A DNA stretch of 47,954 bases from a virus: IMG/VR virus record IMGVR_UViG_3300000956_000007, positions 1-47,954 of that record; one strand, 5' to 3'. A program made the position numbers and the translations under genes. Of this stretch, positions 13,428-23,831 are shown piece after piece. Position 1 is the stretch's first letter. Each line of letters starts with the position of its first letter. The notes beneath the pieces are model-generated. The model searched no databases, was not told the origin of the DNA, and saw nothing but the letters and a program-made list of their open reading frames with translations.

Positions 13428-14308
13428 TACTCTTCACCCAACTCAGTATAACCATAAGTAGACTTCTGATAGTTAGCCTTAAGCATCTGAGTTACGTCGT
13501 CCCCGTTAAGCTCAGCTTTACAAGGCTGCTGAAACATACAGGAACGACAAACCAGAAGAGACATATTTCTTATAGGAGTATTAGAGTAGTCCTGATCTCG
13601 ATGAATCTGATACGCAGCTTCTTTTTGCTCAAACCAGATCTGATTAATCTCAGACTTAGTAGGCTTAATCCATTCTCGTCGGAACAGATCAGCCTGAGTG
13701 GGATTCTTAAGAGAGCGAGTTCTAATCTGGTTAAACATACCCTTAGAGACAGTATAACCATTCTGCTTCAAGACATGGATATACTTAGGAAGCTGAGCGT
13801 CCATCTCAATATCTAAAGGTGTTTTAAAGTTGTAGACAAATTTGTGGTCCACAACTACCAGATCGCCCCTAAATTCCCCGGAGGTCATCTCAACAAGGAG
13901 ATCTAGTTTAAGGGCATACTCGATATTCTCATCTACAGAGGTACGAAAGTCCTTCTCTACTTCAAGGACTTTGAATGTCTCTTCCCTGTAGGCCTGAGCA
14001 TAGAGTTCAACCAGATTTTTTAGTTGGAGAATAAGACCAACAGTCTCAAATTCTCCGGGAGTTTCAGCTGCAAGTCTAGAAATTTCAGTATCTAGAACTT
14101 GTTGAGCAGCAGAACTAGCTACGCCCACTCCAAAACCTTCTTTAAGAGTGAAGTAGTACTGTTCTAGAGCTGAATGTCCTAGAATACCTCTATAAATTGC
14201 AGGGGGGAGTTTCTTGGGTTCATATCCGTGTCCTGCACGCATGAACCGGAAGTCATGTTGTTTATCGCATAATAGTTTCGTACCAACTTGGGTATTCGAA
14301 ATAATCAT
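13427..14308 (-). CDS. Cas4/RecB-like PD-(D/E)XK exonuclease
   Basis: 293 residues. C14 near the N-terminus and a C-terminal VCRSCMFQQPC cluster supply the four Cys of a Cas4-type iron-sulphur site. RGILGHSALEQYY (40-52) carries the conserved His, LDLLVEM (D136) and VVVDHKF (D154, K156) are the nuclease core. It would resect DNA ends for the Sak4 system. Start at 14308 with GAGGG six bases upstream, and a good promoter 42 bases away (14350-14378). Confidence 0.85.
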   Translation of the reverse strand: MIISNTQVGTKLLCDKQHDFRFMRAGHGYEPKKLPPAIYRGILGHSALEQYYFTLKEGFGVGVASSAAQQVLDTEISRLAAETPGEFETVGLILQLKNLVELYAQAYREETFKVLEVEKDFRTSVDENIEYALKLDLLVEMTSGEFRGDLVVVDHKFVYNFKTPLDIEMDAQLPKYIHVLKQNGYTVSKGMFNQIRTRSLKNPTQADLFRREWIKPTKSEINQIWFEQKEAAYQIHRDQDYSNTPIRNMSLLVCRSCMFQQPCKAELNGDDVTQMLKANYQKSTYGYTELGEE

Positions 14309-14390: not shown

Positions 14391-14633
14391 TTAAAGTTCA
14401 TGAGTATGGGATTTCATTACTTTAGCAAGTTCACCAAAAGCTTCTTTAATCTTCTCATGCCAACGAGCATGTCTTACAGTATGGTCTACATGAACAGTTG
14501 CCCAACACGATTCACATACCGCAAAAGAACTGTATGTATCCTCATCATTTTTAAAATGAAACATAGACAAAGTACCGGTAAAAACCATCATAGGGAAGTA
14601 TTCTTCTTCAAGTGCTTGCTCTTCAGGAGTCAT
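14391..14633 (-). CDS. Zinc-finger-like protein, 80 residues
   Basis: An acidic helical N-terminus, then VCESCWATVHVDHTVRHARWHEKI: CxxC followed by paired His in the HxxxxH style that marks many small actinophage proteins. DNA or RNA binding is possible. Overlaps the upstream gene by four bases; the promoter at 14350 lies just downstream of its stop. Confidence 0.65.
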   Translation of the reverse strand: MTPEEQALEEEYFPMMVFTGTLSMFHFKNDEDTYSSFAVCESCWATVHVDHTVRHARWHEKIKEAFGELAKVMKSHTHEL

Positions 14634-14995
14634 CTTCTACCAGTCCTTCTATTTTCTCGTGTATTATATATATGATAAACAGGATCATGGTGTTTCCTAC
14701 ATAGATATACAGAGATAGGATCTCTAAACTCTCTTGTTAGTTTTTTAGCATCTTCCTTTGCCTGTTCCTCTGTTTCATACCGTATCTTCTTACAACCTAA
14801 GCTCTCATAATAGAGAGTTTTCCAGTAGTCCCTAGAGGCAGCAAGTTCAACAATCCTTTGTTCTTTTTCAATATTATTTTCTTTAATTTTTTGTTTCTTT
14901 ATTGTATTAGAAAGTACTTGTTTATAAAATTCAGCTCTTAATCCTACATAATGTCTCATGTTATCAAAATAAAGATCAAACCAAAGTTGACTCAT
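14630..14995 (-). CDS. Hypothetical protein with coiled-coil segment, 121 residues
   Basis: Residues 20-60 form a basic amphipathic helix (NTIKKQKIKENNIEKEQRI) with coiled-coil character; the C-terminal part ends with VYLCRKHHDPVYHIYNT and an Arg-rich tail. His-Cys residues there may bind metal. No recognised family. ATGA overlaps on both sides. Confidence 0.6.
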   Translation of the reverse strand: MSQLWFDLYFDNMRHYVGLRAEFYKQVLSNTIKKQKIKENNIEKEQRIVELAASRDYWKTLYYESLGCKKIRYETEEQAKEDAKKLTREFRDPISVYLCRKHHDPVYHIYNTRENRRTGRR

Positions 14996-15189
14996 TTCCT
15001 AACCCAGAGATAGTAGGGCCATTTGAGCATAATCTCATAAATAAAAAGAAGCTTCTGTAGATAGGTGATATGCTTACCTCTATCTAACATTTCTTGCTCA
15101 AGTCGAGTAAACATGGGAACTAATCCAAGAATAATGACAAATCCAGTAATTATATGGTACATCATATAATAATAAAGAAAATCAATCAT
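14992..15189 (-). CDS. Small membrane protein, 65 residues
   Basis: Aromatic N-terminal hydrophobic segment (DFLYYYMMYHIITGFVIILG, residues 3-22) and a second amphipathic stretch (LLFIYEIMLKWPYYLW). Probably inner-membrane associated. Early-operon membrane peptides of phages often act in host takeover or exclusion, but nothing in the sequence proves it. Confidence 0.6.
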   Translation of the reverse strand: MIDFLYYYMMYHIITGFVIILGLVPMFTRLEQEMLDRGKHITYLQKLLFIYEIMLKWPYYLWVRK

Positions 15190-21254: not shown

Positions 21255-21599
21255 TTATGCTCCCTTGGTTCCTATATAACGGATAGTGTTCTTACTGATA
21301 TCTCTGCCACTAGGATGATTATCACACCACATCTTGGTATCAGAGTTCTTATCTACAGGACGGAAACAATCCTTGAAGTTGCAGTGCTGGGTTTCAAGCT
21401 CAGTATATACAGCACGCATCTTGATATAGACCAGCTCTCCGCCCAGGGCATAAGCCATTTGTCTTAGGGTGGCTTCATCTAGCCTCAACAAATCAGCGCT
21501 CAGAAGTTCAGTCGCACCTGATTTGGAGATTGCCGGAAGTTGAACTATATTAGAAACTTCTGACATGAGTCTGCCTATCTTGTCATTAACAATAATCAT
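21255..21599 (-). CDS. Hypothetical zinc-binding protein, 114 residues
   Basis: Start MIIVNDKIGRLMSEV at 21599 with AAGGA ten bases upstream. The open frame extends to 21662 but there it would run through the -10 box of the promoter. Helical first half; HCNFKDC...MWCDNH near residues 75-100 gives a C/H metal cluster. No family recognised. First gene after promoter 21651-21680. Confidence 0.6.
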   Translation of the reverse strand: MIIVNDKIGRLMSEVSNIVQLPAISKSGATELLSADLLRLDEATLRQMAYALGGELVYIKMRAVYTELETQHCNFKDCFRPVDKNSDTKMWCDNHPSGRDISKNTIRYIGTKGA

Positions 21600-21650
21600 T
21601 TCTAATGTGTCCTTCAACAGGGAAGTGTTGTGCTCTCTAGCAGCACACAG

Positions 21651-21680
21651 AGTATACCACACCTACAGGAAGGACGTCAA
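21651..21680 (-). promoter_or_regulatory. Leftward promoter with CCTGTAGG in its spacer
   Basis: Minus strand TTGACG (21680-21675), 18-base spacer, TATACT (21656-21651). The spacer is TCCTT, CCTGTAGG, TGTGG. This is the best -10 of the leftward promoters and would drive the helicase group. Confidence 0.7.
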
Positions 21681-21693
21681 ATTTAATGTCTGA

Positions 21694-21762
21694 CTAGTTA
21701 GGGGTGAAGATTACCGAGATAAATATTCCTGCTAAGATGAGTATAGCTATGACCTCTACCAT
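21694..21762 (-). CDS. 22-residue membrane micropeptide
   Basis: MVEVIAILILAGIFISVIFTPN: almost entirely one transmembrane span. AAGGA lies seven bases upstream of the ATG, the strongest reason to believe it is translated. Between a tRNA-like RNA and a promoter. Confidence 0.45.
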   Translation of the reverse strand: MVEVIAILILAGIFISVIFTPN

Positions 21763-21790: not shown

Positions 21791-21883
21791 GCCCCCGGGG
21801 AGGAATCGAACCTCCCTGTATGCCTATCCTAGAAATTCGATCAAGGCAAGAGAACCAAGAATAGACATGCACCGAGCCGGGGG
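21791..21883 (-). ncRNA. tRNA-like RNA: acceptor and T-arm, long central hairpin, no D-arm
   Basis: On the minus strand CCCCCGG (21883-21877) pairs with CCGGGGG (21798-21792). A perfect T-arm GGAGG-TTCGATT-CCTCC abuts the acceptor. In place of D and anticodon arms there is CTCGGTGC, then a 10-bp stem ATGTCTATTC/GGATAGGCAT with a 29-base loop, then ACAG. This is the topology of the tRNA-like domain of tmRNA, but far too short to carry a tag frame. No CCA is encoded. Alternatives: a tRNA with an insertion, or a pseudo-tRNA. Confidence 0.65.
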
Positions 21884-21893
21884 AGTCTAAAAG

Positions 21894-22286
21894 TTACAGC
21901 TCGGAAGCCTTGAAGAATCTACCCTCTGCATTTTTGAGCATGAGAGAACCATCCTTGAATGTGTCTACATACATATAGAACGGGGAAGTATCGCTCTCTT
22001 CTCCATTCGTAGGATAGGGAACTTGCTCAGGGTCAATAGTTCCCAGAGGTACACTAATCTTAGAACTCTTTCGAGGTTCTGACTGTGCCATAAAAAACTC
22101 TGCTGGATCTACTTGAAGAAATTCAGCTAGAGCTACTACATTGTCATCCTCAGGACGTTGTTTATTAGTCTCCCAAGCGGACACAGTGAACTGAGAGATG
22201 TTCAATTCCTGAGCGATTTGTCTCTGAGTAGTATTACCCCTGATAGTCTTAAGGTTACTGCCATCCCAAACCAAATCATCAAACAC
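21894..22286 (-). CDS. XRE-family helix-turn-helix regulator
   Basis: 130 residues. Residues 15-58 are a Cro/CI-type helix-turn-helix (TQRQIAQELNISQFTVSAWETNKQRP). The C-terminal 60 residues are beta-like and have no peptidase motif, so it is not a LexA/CI autoproteolysing type. GTG start at 22286 with AAGGAAG five bases upstream. A plausible binder of operators, including the dispersed motif, though that is untested. Confidence 0.8.
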   Translation of the reverse strand: MFDDLVWDGSNLKTIRGNTTQRQIAQELNISQFTVSAWETNKQRPEDDNVVALAEFLQVDPAEFFMAQSEPRKSSKISVPLGTIDPEQVPYPTNGEESDTSPFYMYVDTFKDGSLMLKNAEGRFFKASEL

Positions 22287-22377: not shown

Positions 22378-22398
22378 CTCTGCTCTAGCCTACAGGAA

Positions 22399-22492
22399 GG
22401 GACGTTGGTAGCTTAGCTCGTACTGCTTAGTGTTCTTATCGTGATTCACCACGTCGCGCCAAAGCTTTTACCTAACACTAGACCAACGTCCC
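22399..22492 (-). ncRNA. Structured RNA with 10-bp and 7-bp nested stems
   Basis: GGGACGTTGG (22399-22408) pairs perfectly with CCAACGTCCC (22483-22492). Inside, TAGTGTT/AACACTA (22428-22434 with 22474-22480) and a small CGTG/CACG hairpin. A CCTACAGG motif (22389) directly abuts the outer stem. No gene in this interval. Could be a processed small RNA; not a recognisable tRNA. Confidence 0.5.
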
Positions 22493-22498
22493 AACCTG

Positions 22499-22536: not shown

Positions 22537-22746
22537 TCAGAGTACATCCTTAACTGGCCAATTATAATATCTAAGACCATTGTAAAGAGCACTAACTAAA
22601 TCAACAAGGATGGTCTTACTGTCGGCATGCTCAGAGATACCATTGTGTACAATCTGATTGAATCCAGCACGTTCCTTATTAGAAGGTGCCACTTCATTTA
22701 TTACAGTGTCAATGAGACCTTCAATAGCACGCTTATAATCAGCCAT
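22537..22746 (-). CDS. Hypothetical protein, 69 residues
   Basis: MADYKRAIEGLIDTVINEVAPSNKERAGFNQIV..., helical throughout. Start overlaps the end of the basic 42-residue gene upstream. Function unknown. Confidence 0.6.
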   Translation of the reverse strand: MADYKRAIEGLIDTVINEVAPSNKERAGFNQIVHNGISEHADSKTILVDLVSALYNGLRYYNWPVKDVL

Positions 22747-22867
22747 GGTTAATAACCTGCTTCTTGGGAGCCTTACGCTTGGCCCACGTATTCCGGCCAG
22801 TCTTAATAGGCCTAGGCTTCCTGTAGGTCCGACGCTGAGTTCTAGATGGAGTGTTCCTCTTAACCAT
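22739..22867 (-). CDS. 42-residue highly basic protein
   Basis: MVKRNTPSRTQRRTYRKPRPIKTGRN...: 16 Lys/Arg in 42 residues, no acidic residues, so nucleic-acid binding is likely. Its stop overlaps the next start (ATGGCTGA). One CCTGTAGG copy is read as TYRK. Confidence 0.55.
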   Translation of the reverse strand: MVKRNTPSRTQRRTYRKPRPIKTGRNTWAKRKAPKKQVINHG

Positions 22868-22989: not shown

Positions 22990-23775
22990 TCAGGCAGCGT
23001 TCTCGGATGCCTCTTGCTGAGGCTCAGTTGCCTGCTCAGGGGTGCTGTCACTGGTCCGGGGTCCAGGCTTCTTGCGATCCTTCTGGACCGCACGGAAGTG
23101 ATAGACAGCACCGTTTGAATTAGGCTGGAAATCAAACTCAACGGTACCAGACTTATCGAAAGCAGACTTGATATTCTCGTGAGTAACTCCGGCTGCCTCT
23201 GCAAAAGCAACCTGCATGTCCTTAACATCACAGTTAAGAGTCATAGCGGCCTTAGAGAAAGAGTCATAAACCTGCTCATTCTCAAAGTTACCACCAATCA
23301 TATAAAGCACTGCTGAGACACGGGGGAGTCCAGAACCGGGAGTACCAGGCTTACGACCCCTATTGGACTTAACAGGATTCTCGATAGACTCAAGAGCCTT
23401 GGTTACATTCTCCTTATCAGGGGAGAAGTTCTCAACAATATTATCGAGTACCTGATAGCCAGCCTTAATCTGACTCTTCAATTCGTCAAGCTCAACAGTA
23501 AGCTTGGTCTTGTCATCCTCAGTGAGGGTAACAAGTTCGACATTAGACTCTGCGAGCTCACGCAACTTAGCAAGAGCATTCTGGACAGTAGTACGGAGCT
23601 TGACAGCCTGTGTCATGTCCGTAGTTTCCATCCACGACTTGATAGCAGACTCTTTATCTCCATCAGCAGCCTGCAACTTAAGAGTCAGAGCTGAGTACTG
23701 ACTAGTAGTCTCAGCAAGCTTATCAAGCATAGCCTTAGAGACTGCGTCAGGCCCATCATAACCAATGTAACTCAT
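22990..23775 (-). CDS. Hypothetical DNA-binding-like protein with AT-hook-type segment
   Basis: 261 residues starting MSYIGYDGPDAVSK at 23775 (open frame reaches 23802 with a TTG). The first half is helical and charged. Residues around 140-147 read SNRGRKPGTPG, like an AT-hook; the region after it is globular and the tail is acidic/Gln-rich. GC is visibly higher than in neighbours and residues are cleanly codon-biased, typical of an abundant early protein. Possibly a nucleoid-type or transcription factor; no direct family match. Confidence 0.6.
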   Translation of the reverse strand: MSYIGYDGPDAVSKAMLDKLAETTSQYSALTLKLQAADGDKESAIKSWMETTDMTQAVKLRTTVQNALAKLRELAESNVELVTLTEDDKTKLTVELDELKSQIKAGYQVLDNIVENFSPDKENVTKALESIENPVKSNRGRKPGTPGSGLPRVSAVLYMIGGNFENEQVYDSFSKAAMTLNCDVKDMQVAFAEAAGVTHENIKSAFDKSGTVEFDFQPNSNGAVYHFRAVQKDRKKPGPRTSDSTPEQATEPQQEASENAA

Positions 23776-23831
23776 GATTAATACTTTCTGTTTGTAGTTC
23801 AAGAGTGAGAGCGGAACTCCGGACTACTTAC

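Follow-up and report, generated by a model that had tools for sequence, protein, structure and literature searches.

A 93-nt tRNA-like element without a D-arm, designated E1, lies on the minus strand of the window (the whole 47,954-nt stretch of IMG/VR record IMGVR_UViG_3300000956_000007, a tailed phage of 48 kb), from 21883 at the start of its acceptor to 21791 at N73, and belongs together with a second element, E2, to a family of tRNA-like elements of actinophages. What the analysis shows for this family is a conserved fold with covarying pairs, the number of copies, their strand, and a location between the stop codon of one gene and the start codon of the next. We give slightly better than an even chance to the reading that E1 mimics a tRNA in cis, as a leader of, or a punctuation mark within, an early polycistronic transcript of the phage, where RNase P, alone or together with RNase Z, would probably cut it.

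The structure of E1 was confirmed. Its acceptor consists of the strands CCCCCGG (21877..21883, minus) and CCGGGGG (21792..21798, minus), which form Watson-Crick pairs at 7/7 positions, and is stacked on the T-arm GGAGG-TTCGATT-CCTCC (21799..21815, minus), whose stem forms 5/5 pairs. This coaxial stack of 7+5 bp has the approximately 12 bp expected of an RNase P substrate. The D-loop-like linker CTCGGTGC (21869..21876, minus) contains GG, and no D-stem of tRNA size forms; the counterparts of this linker in relatives are CATGCGGT, CCTCGGTGG, and TCTTGGTGG. The place of the anticodon arm is occupied by an inner helix (P2) between ATGTCTATTCT (21858..21868, minus) and AGGATAGGCAT (21820..21830, minus), which is connected to the T-arm by a short joint. 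N73 is the C residue at 21791, and CCA is not encoded. The 7-bp acceptor, the perfect T-arm stacked on it, and the missing D-stem of the original prediction, in which the strand was absent, were all found again. The hairpin that it had placed at the anticodon-arm position was also found, with 11 bp, three of them G-U, rather than 10 bp. The combination of a 7-bp acceptor and a consensus T-arm occurred by chance at 0.013 per dinucleotide-shuffled window, and the fold energy of E1 by itself was modestly unusual (z −2.2).

The stop codon of a gene encoding a helix-turn-helix (HTH) regulator (21894..22286, minus) is located 10 nt before E1, and the ATG of a 22-aa ORF (MVEVIAILILAGIFISVIFTPN; 21694..21762, minus; Shine-Dalgarno-like sequence TAAGGA) 28 nt after it. 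E2 (22978-22914, minus), which is positioned approximately 1.1 kb upstream of E1 in the transcript, also has no D-stem and consists of a 6-bp acceptor (TGTGTG/CACACG), the linker TCTGGTGAG, an 8-bp arm, and the T-arm GATAG-TTCGATT-CTATC, followed by C73-U74. The upstream gene (22990..23802, minus) ends with a stop codon 11 nt before E2, and a small basic ORF of 42 aa (MVKRNTPSRTQRRTYRKPRP...; 22739..22867, minus; Shine-Dalgarno sequence TAGGAG) begins with an ATG 46 nt after it. Two further structured intergenic stretches were seen in the window: a 17-nt inverted repeat (88%) around 72 nt at 22393-22498, and a hairpin at 21610-21683 whose 3′ strand carries the likely Shine-Dalgarno sequence of the gene at 21255-21662.

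The distant relatives of this phage include Arthrobacter phage Jasmine, Cellulosimicrobium phage DS1, and Microbacterium phage Shocker (portal 38-42% and terminase 36-41% identity); in IMG/VR, 52 relatives were found by the portal protein and more by helicase alignment. As a separate feature of the window, the 7-mer CCTGTAG occurs in 63 copies (32 on the plus and 31 on the minus strand) against approximately 6 expected, with the consensus (T/C)CCTGTAGGYC. The copies are found within genes, where they often encode PPVGQ-like peptides, and between genes. The 7-mer is also enriched in the relatives L075, L104, L106, and L115, and not in L134, Jasmine, DS1, or Shocker.

A search requiring an acceptor, a linker with GG, an inner helix, and a T-arm, as in the long form, gave nine matches, including E1 and E2, across 2.6 Mb of loci that are mostly related; 7.7 Mb of shuffled sequence yielded no match. 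In a looser architecture search, E1 and E2 scored 48 and 41, respectively, and the top score in 6.1 Mb of shuffled sequence was 38. One broad pattern scan mostly yielded chance matches, and only those with a 7-bp acceptor were retained. No fewer than six related genomes carry the long form, both helices showing compensatory changes. Its members lie approximately 1-3.5 kb upstream of the helicase gene, and L106, L115, and L185 each carry two elements, as does the window. Two subclasses, GGYCCCG-CATGCGGT... and GGNCCCG-YCTYGGTGG..., were distinguished. In the original prediction, homologues with broken acceptor and T-arm pairs had been named as the finding that would speak against the structure; at the family level, these pairs are kept, the acceptor and T-stem of 12 long-form members being preserved by compensatory change with many pair types in register, while the acceptor sequence itself varies freely. 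In L099, L137, L122, and L150, the D-arm is kept and the anticodon arm is replaced by a long hairpin, and these members therefore point to a continuum between tRNAs and E1-like forms. No orthologue of E1 was found at the syntenic gap of the nearest relatives G007, G002, G004, and G003 (portal 58-75% identical), suggesting rapid turnover of the elements. A candidate in L004 was rejected because it resembles coding sequence.

The T-arm of E1 also matched unannotated intergenic sites of isolated actinophages, and folding of these sites revealed a mini form of 41-43 nt, which is composed of a 5-6 bp stem, a GG linker of 10-11 nt (for example, ACTGGCAGACA, AGAGGCACACA, ATGGTCGAAG...), a 5-6 bp T-stem, and a TTCRANT loop. 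Its acceptor/T-arm stack amounts to 11-12 bp, and an anticodon-side arm is absent. In an alignment of 17 distinct sequences, 11/11 pairs were always formed and 9/11 had changed on both sides; the covariation score of 0.779 exceeded both the 0.172 obtained after shuffling and the maximum of 0.194 reached when pairings were slid. The 3′ end of the mini form carries A73 in 21/25 and C74 in 24/25 sequences, whereas E1 has C73-C74. N73 is A in nearly all elements other than E1 and E2, and an A at N-1 is conserved beside the A-C of N73/N74. By covariance model, 8 copies were found in Streptomyces phage Joe, 8 and 15 in mycobacteriophages Oaker and Send513, 9 in Endor1, 10 in Gordonia phage VanLee, 3 in Octobien14, and 1 each in George and SWU2. 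A blastn search with one Oaker copy matched 253 places in 134 phage records, all of Streptomyces, Mycobacterium, Gordonia, or Microbacterium phages and almost always unannotated. Rfam contains no family for the mini form.

Covariance model R1, which was built without E1, detected E1 with 31.8 bits (E=4.4e-5) in a match that covers 21797-21828 and model positions 5-36 only; E2 was not picked up by R1. The other R1 matches at E<1 in 1.7 Mb of mostly related loci were four, namely two overlapping loci of G017, one in G019, and one weak match. The match in E1 spans the T-arm and ATAGGCATACA (21817..21827, minus), a stretch immediately 5′ of the T-stem that resembles the mini-form linker NNNGGCANACA; the corresponding sequence in G017, which comes from the same family as the window, is AAAGGCATACA. 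Since this mini-like linker shares bases with the 3′ strand of P2, two folds could compete in E1. The class marks, namely the GG linker and a TTCRANY T-loop closed by G53-C61, are shared by E1 and E2. Two further observations concern other loci. In L095 of G019 (13453-13900, minus), a tRNA cluster contains an HNH-like ORF flanked by tRNA-Lys and a mini element (30.4 bits), and the more distant contig L162 carries three copies (9687, 12047, and 12340) of another acceptor/T-arm element (TGCCTAT...ATAGGCA) with a GG linker of 13-14 nt.

E1 was rejected as a tRNA: it does not form a cloverleaf with a D-arm and a 7-nt anticodon loop, the P2 hairpin stands in place of an anticodon arm, ARAGORN, which called only tRNA-Arg and tRNA-Leu in the window, was negative, and no match to RF00005 was obtained at E<5. 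The original prediction was correct in ascribing to E1 a tmRNA-like shape of acceptor and T-arm without room for a tag frame. The tRNA-like domain of tmRNA (SsrA) likewise has an acceptor on a T-arm, a stemless D-loop, and a long helix for the anticodon arm. However, identification as a tmRNA was rejected as well. In E1, C3-G70 replaces G3-U70, which is found in 0/12 long forms, tag frame and pseudoknots are lacking, and ARAGORN was again negative. The elements described here are 41-112 nt long, compared with 300-400 nt for tmRNA, and occur in many copies placed in cis between genes; Mycobacterium phage Kumao, by contrast, has an annotated tmRNA. In Rfam, E1 gave only a T-arm fragment and chance-level matches, the best tmRNA match being a 17-nt T-arm piece with 9.3 bits against a cut-off of 84. 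An integration site (attP) copied from the 3′ end of a host tRNA was rejected because E1 also has the 5′ acceptor strand and the sole genome match to its 3′ half is a Patescibacteria tRNA-Lys. The E1 region showed no DNA similarity to other phages or to the nearest relatives, and searches of IMG/VR with the T-arm/acceptor patterns of E1 and E2 gave no matches.

The mini elements have a preferred position relative to genes. In five annotated genomes, the end of 40/46 is followed by an annotated start after 28-55 nt; all are on the coding strand, and they begin a median of 11 nt after the preceding stop codon (binomial P per genome, 2e-8 to 9e-14). E1 (10 nt after a stop and 28 nt before a start) and E2 (11 and 46 nt) follow the same rule on the same strand, and 20/28 other odd tRNA-like members have a start codon at most 60 nt downstream. 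Canonical tRNAs of this phage family occupy the same niche in 33/61 cases, compared with 11% of random positions. Spacing to the start codon was therefore rejected as a mark separating mimics from true tRNAs; rather, the spacing rule marks a niche filled by both alike, as expected if tRNAs and tRNA-like elements punctuate the same transcripts. A second short hairpin of at least 6 bp follows 80% of the elements on the 3′ side, compared with 38% of random sites, a modest enrichment, and E1 has no such hairpin.

A long-form element was also found at the right end of D29: GGGTAG-CTCTGGCG...-CCAGG-TTCGATT-CCTGG-CTACCC-A, ending approximately 48 nt before gene 89. In D29 and its relatives, the early promoter Pleft is upstream of this element, and the first gene begins 38-60 nt beyond it. 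In six related phages, the T-stem changes in a compensatory manner (CCAGG/CCTGG, TCGGG/CCCGA, CGCGG/CCGCG, and TGCGG/CCGCA), as do the acceptor (GGGTGG/CCACCC in Mulciber) and the first inner hairpin, and A73-C74 is always present. According to Dedrick et al. (PMC5712189), Pleft of L5, D29, and StarStuff produces an extremely abundant, stable non-coding RNA, seen on Northern blots as a species of approximately 500 nt and as processed species of 100-400 nt that share their 5′ end. The authors found the region to be toxic, were unable to delete part of it, and placed the 3′ end of the L5 RNA at 51,140-51,190. The passages of that report considered here describe no tRNA-like portion in the RNA of approximately 500 nt, the D29 region of which includes the long-form member. 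Our comparison used D29 and SWU1, the two standing in for L5; judged from the SWU1 position and the difference in genome length, the 3′ end of the L5 RNA would lie close to the end of the element.

E1 has kept the part of a tRNA that is read by processing enzymes, namely the 12-bp acceptor/T-arm stack, the T-loop, and the GG, but no longer the part used in decoding. Known targets of RNase P cleavage include model hairpins of acceptor and T-arm as well as phage M3, C4, and mRNA substrates (PMC11143913). Because the part read by RNase P and RNase Z is kept, such hairpins are cut by RNase P, and the acceptor varies, punctuation in cis with cleavage at one or both ends is favoured. The GG of the linker could dock into the T-loop, as G18-G19 do. 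Host RNase P would cut on the 5′ side of the acceptor, and a second cut, by RNase Z or a different nuclease, would follow N73. Such cuts would separate the cistrons, fix the 5′ end of the downstream messenger, and release a tRNA-like piece that may persist as a stable small RNA. Recruitment of tRNA-processing enzymes, which the original prediction had suggested, remains the best guess at function. The C73 of E1 and E2, the lack of CCA, the empty syntenic gap in four relatives, and the lack of a following hairpin count against this reading, as does the attribution of the L5 3′ end to termination by Dedrick et al.

The strongest alternative is a cis-acting leader that is bound without being cleaved. 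In this case, RNA polymerase or a protein of phage or host origin would read the fold and thereby control downstream translation, antitermination, or stability, as RNA polymerase reads the put RNA of HK022. The same placement data are compatible with this, and the conserved linker GGCANACA and T-loop suggest that the fold is recognized. However, the preserved shape is that of a substrate of tRNA enzymes, and an uncut leader has no need for the conserved A-C at N73/N74 or the A at N-1; we therefore regard it as unlikely. Less likely still is the idea, put forward in the original prediction, of an independent, stable small RNA that would serve in trans as a decoy of anticodon nucleases, tRNA enzymes, or EF-Tu. 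The variable hairpin of the long forms could serve as its payload, and the right-end RNA of D29/L5 is described as abundant, stable, and toxic (PMC5712189). Yet up to 15 copies occur per genome, each before a different gene, and the mini forms have neither payload nor anticodon. In addition, the acceptor varies freely, unlike that of a tRNA charged by one synthetase, making such charging unlikely.

Intergenic terminators lacking a poly-U tail have been described in actinophage phiC31, and the elements stand directly after stop codons; termination of this kind would nevertheless leave the conserved T-loop, GG linker, and unpaired A73-C74 unnecessary, and a scan that is blind to tail-less terminators found none with a T-run at E1. 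Approximately 90% of L5 transcripts end near the inferred position of the element, for which Dedrick et al. invoke termination rather than cleavage (PMC5712189). Taken together, we see only a slim chance that the elements are terminators. Decay of a former phage tRNA gene by deletion of the D-arm and insertion into the anticodon arm is very improbable: relatives contain intermediates with a D-arm and odd anticodon arms, but at the family level (E1 having no orthologue), compensatory change keeps the acceptor and T-arm across many phages, contrary to decay, and the tRNA with an inserted segment proposed in the original prediction gives way to numerous cis-placed elements that include a 41-nt mini form without any anticodon-side arm. 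Overall, the original interpretation of E1 was partly supported.

Folds resembling tRNA, cleavage of phage RNAs by RNase P, and punctuation by tRNAs all have precedents. T4, a different phage, also has stable non-tRNA RNAs in its tRNA region, namely RNA C and RNA D (species 1 and 2), which have no known cis placement. In mitochondria and in bacterial tRNA-mRNA operons, tRNA structures between cistrons are excised to make mRNA ends, whereas most punctuators here would be reduced mimics and not tRNAs. The M3 RNA of phi80, the C4 antisense RNA of P1/P7, and polycistronic mRNA cut by RNase P likewise contain tRNA-like folds in phage or mRNA transcripts (PMC11143913), but these are single loci, in contrast to the 8-15 related copies per genome of a minimal, putatively cleaved acceptor/T-arm form. 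Repeated intergenic motifs just before starts are also known from actinophages, including the SAS/ESAS of cluster K mycobacteriophages; SAS is a 13-bp asymmetric sequence beside the start codon with 17-bp inverted repeats upstream (ESAS), and such motifs are described as short asymmetric or inverted DNA sequences rather than tRNA-like RNAs (PMC7302621). A multi-copy reduced tRNA-like element before phage starts was not found in Rfam 15 or by full-text searches of open PMC articles; the subscription literature is largely outside this search, and priority is therefore uncertain.

More tentatively, and at somewhat less than an even chance, actinophages may use a dedicated punctuation system, in which many minimal acceptor/T-arm mimics between genes allow host tRNA enzymes to cut messages into separately stable units, and the L5/D29 Pleft RNA would be an instance whose product has already been observed. 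If so, a common RNA class, absent from Rfam and unannotated in more than 100 records, has been overlooked in some of the most thoroughly studied phages (cluster A, H, and R mycobacteriophages and Streptomyces Camvirus). Such a class would represent the minimal model substrate of RNase P as it occurs in nature, and it could account for the abundant RNA at the right end of L5/D29. It would also carry tRNA punctuation beyond organelles into phages.

Unusual tRNA genes were also observed in relatives of the window phage. ARAGORN named those at L085 718-787, L088 10296-10364 (minus), L077 9774-9847, and L090 3453-3523 as Ser/Phe?, Ser-gga, Pyl-cta, and Pro-agg, respectively, and the first three have a 6-nt anticodon loop or lack U33. 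In L104 (IMGVR_UViG_3300005981_000001), the region 14480-15060 contains four tRNA 3′ halves, each followed after 0-6 nt by a complementary 5′ half, with the junctions CAGTCTT|AGGACTG, CCAACAG|CTGTTAG, CGCCAGC|GCTGATG, and ATGGGCC|GGCCCAT. The inserts between the halves have conserved ends (CATTTATCC...GGGTCGGATTG-ATCGGTTA), and the locus is a candidate for a phage-borne array of circularly permuted tRNA genes.
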